Positions 22,107 through 37,249 of a stretch of DNA of 64,000 bases are shown here, in pieces (positions within the stretch are counted from its first letter, which is position 1; every line of letters starts with the position of its first letter). The position numbers were made by a program, and so were the translations under genes. The stretch lies in contig DASYRE010000036.1 in NCBI GenBank assembly GCA_036004685.1, positions 62,001-126,000 on the forward strand, in the 5' to 3' direction. Source of the stretch: Candidatus Polarisedimenticolia bacterium. GTDB lineage: Bacteria; Acidobacteriota; Polarisedimenticolia; Gp22-AA2; AA152. Under the pieces are notes generated by a model, which saw only the letters and a list, made by a program, of their open reading frames with translations, ran no database searches and was not told where the DNA came from.

Positions 22107-22421
22107 CTAGTCGGCCGGGGCGGAGTGGGCGCGCGCCAGCTTCTCGAAGCGCTTCGCCATCTCCACGTCGTTCGAGGTGATCCCTCCGGAATCGTGCGTC
22201 GTCAGATCGATCTTCACCGTATGGTAGACGTTGAACCACTCGGGATGGTGATTCATCGATTCGGCGACCAGGGCGGCGCTCGCCATGAAGCCGAACGCCT
22301 CCACGAAGCTGCTGAACTTGTATTCCCGGTGCAGCTTCCCCTTCTCCACGCTCCATCCGGGCAGATGCGCCAAGGCCGCCGCCACTTCGGCGTCGCCGAG
22401 CTTCTTGGGTCTCTCTATCAT
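22107..22421 (-). CDS. phhB: Pterin-4a-carbinolamine dehydratase
   Basis: The product is 104 residues, the normal size of PCD/DCoH. It dehydrates 4a-hydroxytetrahydrobiopterin so that the cofactor of aromatic amino acid hydroxylases can be recycled. The signature [E][22 protein letters not shown] carries the paired histidines and the following Pro-Glu-Trp of the active site. [14 protein letters not shown] closes the fold. A GGAAGGAG lies upstream of the ATG. No phenylalanine hydroxylase gene is present in the window. Just upstream of it lies the 50-bp tandem repeat array, and it converges on the multihaem cytochrome gene. Confidence 0.9.
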
Positions 22422-22560
22422 GACGGTCTCCTTCCAGAAGTTGAGCTAAAGGTCGGGTGATCCACGCCGGCCGGCTTGCGGATCGGCGACGCGCGGTCCG
22501 GTCCGCGACGGGGGTGACCAGATGCCCCGCGCCACGAGCCGGTTTCCGGAGCATGCAACG

Positions 22561-22848
22561 CGCGGTTTGACCCGCGGCGCCGTTTGGCTGCCGGGTCCGG
22601 AGTAGCAACGCGCGGTTTGACCCGTGGCGCCGTTTGGCCGCCGGGTCCGGAGTAGCAACGCGCGGTTTGACCCGCGGCGCCGTTTGGCCGCCGGGTCCGG
22701 AGTAGCGACGCGCGGTTTGACCCGCGGCGCCGTTTGGCCGCCGGGTCCCGGGTAGCAACGCGCGGTTTGACCCGTGGCGCCGTTTGGCCGCCGGGTCCCG
22801 AGTAGCAACGCGCGGTTTGACCCGCGGCGCCGTTTGGCCGCCGGGTCC
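22561..22848 (+). repeat. 50-bp tandem repeat array, five full copies and one partial
   Basis: Units start at 22561, 22611, 22661, 22711, 22761 and 22811; the last stops after 38 bases at 22848. Each begins CGCGGTTTGACCCGCGGCGC, continues CGTTTGGCCGCCGGGTCC and ends in GGAGTAGCAACG. Differences are a few substitutions per copy. Inside every unit GACCCGCGGC pairs with GCCGCCGGGTC (one bulged C, eight-base loop), so each unit can fold into a hairpin. The minus strand of the unit has no stop codon in any frame. The array fills most of the 546-base gap between phhB and ispG. Bases 22422-22560 before it and 22849-22931 after it hold no gene; the latter has an AT-rich TATATATA at 22859-22866 and a small CCCGG/CCGGG hairpin at 22878-22894. 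Confidence 0.9.
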
Positions 22849-22931
22849 AAACCGCCCATATATATAGGATGAGAACTCCCGGCGGCAAACCGGGGGCCTC
22901 GATTCCGGCGCGGGCGCCAGCGCCGGGCCGT

Positions 22932-22961
22932 TTGCTCCCCTTCCGCGCCGTGGGCTAGAAT
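22932..22961 (+). promoter_or_regulatory. Promoter of ispG operon, probably leaderless
   Basis: TTGCTC (22932-22937) and TAGAAT (22956-22961) are 18 bases apart. The -10 box ends six bases before the ispG ATG, with no ribosome binding site between, so the mRNA likely begins at the start codon. Confidence 0.55.
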
Positions 22962-22967
22962 TCGCGC

Positions 22968-25051
<2,084 letters not shown>

Positions 25052-25055
<4 letters not shown>

Positions 25056-25840
25056 GCGCCGCGCCGCTCGCGACCGGCGCGCTGGCCCTCGCCGCCGCGC
25101 TGCTCGCCGGCTCCTCCTTCGGCTCCGCCTCCTCCGACCCGTCGAGCGCCCCGGTGGTCACCTCCCGGGGGGATTACCGCCTCCTCGTCTATCCTCCCCG
25201 CGAGGAGACCGGCCGGCCACCGGTGCTGCTGATCTCCGGCGAAGGTGGGTGGCGCCGGTTCGACCAGACGCTGGGCCGGTTCTTCGCCGACGCCGGGCAC
25301 TGGGTGGGGGGAATGGACAGCCTCAAGTACTTCTGGCACCCCCAGGACGATCCGCGGGCGCTCGCCGGCGATGTCGAGGCCTACGTCGCGGCGCTGCTGA
25401 AGGCATCCGGGCGCCCCCAGGGCTCGCCGGTCATCCTGGCGGGATTCTCTTTCGGCGCCGACCTGGCCCCGCGGATCGCCGGGGCCTGGACCGGAAGGAG
25501 CCCGATCGCCGGATTGGTGATGCTCGGCCCCGATGAGGTGGGCAGCCTGCAATTCCGGGTGCTCGAGATCTTCGGCTTCGACGAAAAGGACCACGTCTTC
25601 TCGGTGGCGGAGGCCCTGGCCACCGTGAAGGCCGTTCCGATTCTCTTCCTCCACGGGGACGAAGACGCCCACTCCGACGCCGTCGCGCTCTTCCGCCGCG
25701 CCCCCGATCCCAAGAAACTGATCCACGTCAGCGGCAGCGATCATCACTTCGCGGGCCACGAGGACGACCTTCGCGCCCGGCTCACCGAGGGCCTGGCGTG
25801 GCTGCTCCAGGTCCCGCGAAAAAACTCTCCGGGCCGCTGA
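25052..25840 (+). CDS. Single-domain AcvB/VirJ-type exported hydrolase
   Basis: The product is 262 residues with a signal peptide (about 1-25) and one AcvB/VirJ alpha/beta-hydrolase domain. Visible features are ISGEGGW (residues 62-68), the Ser nucleophile in GFSFGAD, the acid-containing FLHGDEDAHSDA, and the terminal histidine pair in SGSDHHFAGH. AcvB in Agrobacterium relatives hydrolyses lysyl-phosphatidylglycerol in the periplasm, and VirJ is the Ti-plasmid paralogue. The next gene is an MprF-type aminoacyl-phosphatidylglycerol synthase, so a lipid-hydrolysis role here is likely. It starts on the last bases of ispG. Confidence 0.75.
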
Positions 25841-37048: not shown

Positions 37049-37083
37049 GGTCGTCCTCGGAACGACTCAGCGGCCGGCATGGT

Positions 37084-37249
37084 AGTGTCGCGTCTCCGAA
37101 ATCCCGTTACATTCGGCCGTCGATCCAACCCGGCTGGCTGCGTTGCACCTCGCTTGCGTACCGCTTTGGGTACGCGGCACTTCGGCGCGCCTTGCCATCC
37201 GGGCGCCTCGACGGCCTCGATGTTGACGTGATTCCTGAAACGCAACACT
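37084..37249. mobile_element. MITE-like palindromic element, 166 bp
   Basis: The ends are imperfect inverted repeats (37084-37106 and 37227-37249) matching at 18 of 23 positions, beginning AGTGTCGCGT on one side and AGTGTTGCGT on the other. The centre is an exact hairpin, GCGTACC (37156-37162) and GGTACGC (37169-37175). The halves between also correspond (for example GGCCGTCGA in both), so the whole unit is one long imperfect palindrome. It carries no gene. No clear target duplication was found. It fits a non-autonomous element moved by a transposase elsewhere in the genome. Confidence 0.6.

Follow-up and report, generated by a model that had tools for sequence, protein, structure and literature searches.

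The divergent spacer between phhB and ispG carries six head-to-tail copies of a 50 bp unit, and this array is very probably a local amplification of a small, REP-like or BOX-like hairpin element that is dispersed among the intergenic regions of the same genome. Within the stretch of 64,000 nucleotides analyzed here (the window), TRF places the array on the plus strand at bp 22545-22848 (period 50, 6.1 copies, 95% matches, score 543). The 50 bp tandem array described in the first-pass annotation is thus real, and its period and right end stand, but its true start lies about 16 bp before bp 22561, where it had been placed. Alignment of the units gives 51 bp for unit 1, which has one extra base, and 50 bp for each of the following five; 44 of the 50 positions are invariant, and the units differ, as had been seen at the outset, by a few bases that are distinct substitutions in the different units. 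The copy number is taken from a single assembly, fragmented into 62 contigs, several of which end in a high-copy repeat, and a false tandem created during assembly could be suspected on that account. However, the distinct substitutions among the units and the occurrence of other head-to-tail clusters in an independent genome (G001, same family but another genus) make such an artefact extremely improbable.

The genes on either side, both identified by Pfam, are those between which the array had originally been placed. They are phhB (pterin-4a-carbinolamine dehydratase, PF01329, Pterin_4a; bp 22107-22421) and ispG (GcpE, PF04551, a long form of 695 amino acids; bp 22968-25055), and since phhB is on the minus and ispG on the plus strand they are divergent. 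The gene order cytochrome-phhB-ispG is kept in G001, where the divergent spacer is only 142 bp long and contains no array; the spacer here is 546 bp, about 400 bp longer, and the array is therefore an insertion or expansion. The noncoding flanks of the two genera are too diverged to show an empty site or a target duplication. A putative ispG promoter (TTGCTC, 18 nt, TAGAAT; bp 22932-22961, plus strand) lies just before the ATG at bp 22968, and a similar stretch directly precedes ispG in two relatives; thus, this putative promoter lies between the array and ispG. A strict promoter scan of the region listed nothing, this stretch included. Genomes of the other family of the order match the 695 amino acid IspG only over two stretches that lie apart, at about residues 9-274 and at about 584-656, which suggests that the protein carries a long insert domain. 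The last 4 bp of ispG also belong to a VirJ-like gene (PF06057; bp 25052-25840).

The core of the element is a 54 nt hairpin with 17 bp and two unpaired bases on its 3′ arm. Its complete form is the last array copy (bp 22807-22860, plus strand), which matches the covariance model with 62 bits, and the same search finds the inner hairpin on the plus strand in unit 1 (bp 22569-22598), unit 2 (bp 22619-22648), unit 3 (bp 22669-22698), unit 4 (bp 22719-22748) and unit 5 (bp 22769-22798). The full outer stem (GCGGTTTG/CCAAACCGC) is present only in the last unit. The first-pass annotation had proposed a hairpin for every unit; the hairpin does exist, but the stability of an internal unit taken singly does not exceed that of its shuffles (z about 0), and only the last copy, with its outer stem, stands out from them when folded as DNA (z −3.58).

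Besides the array, a DNA search of the source genome found three short partial matches. When the inner hairpin was searched for with a gapped pattern, there were 10 matches against 0 for a reversed control. A first covariance model, built from nine copies, located the hairpin at 24 separate places of the 3.84 Mb genome, the last array unit included, in addition to the other array units. It had been suggested that the genome be searched for the 50-mer, and that the same unit at hundreds of intergenic sites would make it an ordinary dispersed repeat; the 50-mer itself is unique to this locus, and it is the hairpin core that is dispersed, in tens of copies. Genes were called with a simple method based on codon usage, and none of the 24 places overlaps one. 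The neighboring genes are in tandem at 15 places, convergent at 6 and divergent at 2, and the remaining place is at a contig end. At the 15 tandem sites the hairpin is oriented with the genes in eight cases and against them in seven; it does not, therefore, act as an oriented terminator or leader. A divergent setting is unusual for the family (2 of 23), and the array, which lies between divergent genes, is therefore not a typical copy. At one locus (L065, positions 955-1555; G000:C60:5247-5847, G000 being the source genome) two hairpins in the same orientation lie ∼550 bp apart around a frame of 144 amino acids that has no Pfam match, and their stems carry compensatory departures from the usual letters (GAGCCG/CGGCTC). 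At ten hairpins that are clustered or paired, no neighboring gene encodes a recognizable transposase; the domains encoded there are a HAD hydrolase, thioredoxin, Usp, Hsp20 and others of a housekeeping type.

A second covariance model has 52 matches in G001, and the two sets of hairpins have different letters but the same fold. In a MAFFT alignment of 38 copies from these two genomes, with pairs counted against a stated structure, 90.5% of the cells are paired, and double-sided changes occur in 11 of the 17 pairs. The covariation score is 0.278, compared with 0.022-0.101 for slid partners; these counts come from two related genomes and from copies found with a model of the same structure, and the events are not independent. 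The hairpin is a conserved structure whose fold has been kept by compensatory change between genera. Its geometry has two bulges (4 bp, an unpaired base, 5 bp, an unpaired C, then the outer stem), the first unpaired base of the 3′ arm being mostly C or T and the second nearly always C. Among 396 genomes sampled from the phylum, one of another family adds three weaker matches with the same geometry, and the remaining genomes have none at the same threshold, in a search that was filtered more strictly and scored few candidates in each genome. A DNA search of 60 relatives matched only the source genome; the structure model was needed to find the others. Neither exact and gapped pattern searches of viral and genome collections nor blastn against phages and plasmids gave a match, in collections that may leave out records near the source genome. 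G001 also has head-to-tail hairpin clusters (100 bp × 3.1, 96 bp × 2.1 and 62-64 bp × 2.2), which indicate that the hairpin tends to amplify, and at some of its loci neighboring hairpins are inverted (for example, L078, L081 and L099).

The first-pass annotation had left a structural RNA, a protein-binding array and an evolving coding repeat as possibilities, and it is borne out in part, the hairpin itself being a conserved structure. Preservation of the hairpin by compensatory changes might be expected of a cis-acting RNA (a leader, terminator or stabilizer) or a small RNA, but the array is upstream of the putative ispG promoter, no T-run terminator was found at it, and the whole array folded as RNA is not more stable than shuffles (z +1.2). 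No Rfam covariance model scored above its gathering score, the best match (E 0.53, far below threshold) being a chance match to mir-7964 with 18.8 bits against a required 80. Because the hairpin is found at 24 unrelated intergenic sites, without orientation bias at those between tandem genes, it is unlikely to be a cis-acting RNA specific to ispG or phhB, and an RNA role of any of these kinds is very doubtful.

An array that binds gyrase, a nucleoid protein or a regulator, and that selection maintains as an insulator or regulator of the divergent promoters of phhB and ispG, would fit the position between two promoters and the high identity of the units, and binding of host proteins has been reported for BIMEs (PMC2817692). 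On the other hand, the short syntenic spacer of G001 does without such an array, the hairpin also lies at 23 other places beside unrelated genes, and recent amplification would give high unit identity equally well, so that a selected binding array seems unlikely, if somewhat less so than an RNA. A coding repeat that cycles through three frames on the minus strand can be dismissed with near certainty. The minus strand is stop-free in all frames, as first reported, and open frames of 156 and 292 amino acids span the array, but 45% of tandem arrays of shuffled units and 50% of those made from window 50-mers are stop-free too, so this property is uninformative. In each of the six frames the codon score of the array is below zero (−0.12 to −0.24 per codon, compared with +0.36 to +0.44 for the neighboring genes), and a spacer of 142 bp separates the same two genes in G001.

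Amplification of a dispersed element thus remains the preferred account, and its steps can be sketched. One dispersed hairpin element may have inserted into the divergent phhB-ispG spacer. The array begins with TCC at its left edge (bp 22545-22547, plus strand) and ends with TCC (bp 22846-22848), so the first duplication could have arisen through a 3 bp microhomology, by joining of the TCC on the hairpin's left side with the TCC in its 3′ arm. Slippage or unequal crossing-over, aided by hairpins in single-stranded template DNA, could then have given six copies. Probably the element is a mobile repeat, parasitic or neutral, with a single-stranded hairpin that some enzyme recognizes, and any influence of the array on the two neighboring genes, ispG and phhB, would be incidental (through spacing or supercoiling). 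A bolder version, to which we give a small chance, is that these hairpins form a class of single-stranded DNA elements, with the two-bulge geometry conserved, in scattered members of one phylum, moved by something other than a Y1 transposase, and that the tandem arrays are products of that enzyme and not of plain slippage.

A second repeat of this genome is a high-copy MITE with inverted ends TAGTGTCGCGTCTC/GAAACGCAACACTAG and, in many copies, CTAG flanks; one copy lies in the window at bp 37083-37217. It was scored at about 40 places, from 105 first-look candidates, and several copies coincide with contig ends; the MITE is thus a probable cause of breaks in the assembly. The left flank of this CTAG-flanked element, which bears terminal inverted repeats (TIRs), is found at 13 of the 24 hairpins of the source genome, a likeness to MITEs such as RUP, which is moved by an IS630-type transposase and has a reported TA target (PMC2229807). 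The array itself, in contrast, has no significant MITE flank (left p 0.74, right p 0.08), nor the combination of TIRs and target duplication, and no MITE end was seen by eye in the flanks of the G001 hairpins. An IS630-type driver was considered for the MITE; two DDE_3 (IS630-type) transposase genes exist (G000:C31:44061-44456 and G000:C34:451-816; L114 and L115), but no MITE end or TIR was found near them.

The closest parallels are with REP, BIME and REPIN sequences, which are likewise small imperfect palindromes, mostly intergenic, dispersed and sometimes in tandem clusters, with conserved unpaired bases interrupting the stem; in Escherichia coli REP a conserved bulge is contacted by its transposase (PMC8266576). 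The 24 short, dispersed, intergenic imperfect palindromes described here have that general character. However, REP elements are tagged with GTAG or CGTC, the GTAG kind being tied to Y1 transposases (PMC3733652, PMC8266576), and most of these hairpins are not: GTAG lies upstream of the hairpin in 1 of the 24 copies of the source genome (that of the array) and 1 of the 14 G001 copies, and CGTC in 3 of the 24. The stem is also longer than in REP, and there are tens of copies rather than hundreds. None of the 12 genomes of the order, the source genome and G001 among them, has the Y1 (IS200-like) transposase family PF01797, which is present in 5 of 14 controls; RAYT-driven REP is rejected because of this absence. 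The head-to-tail array also lacks the alternating palindromes with linkers of BIMEs. Integron attC sites, with the pattern RYYYAAC...GTTRRRY, are imperfect palindromes with extrahelical bases as well, but the aligned hairpins have the reverse order, GTTGAC...GTCCAAC.

Pneumococcal BOX elements, boxA-boxB(n)-boxC, have a folded module in variable tandem copy number at scattered places (PMC3049150). The tandem hairpin module recalls boxB in architecture only; boxA and boxC modules were not recognized around the array. Thus, an apparently unique array proves to belong to a family of dispersed hairpins whose evolution has clearly been compensatory, one that resembles the known bacterial palindromic repeats without their usual tag and Y1 transposase, and that makes it testable what spreads REP-like hairpins without RAYTs and why they amplify head to tail.
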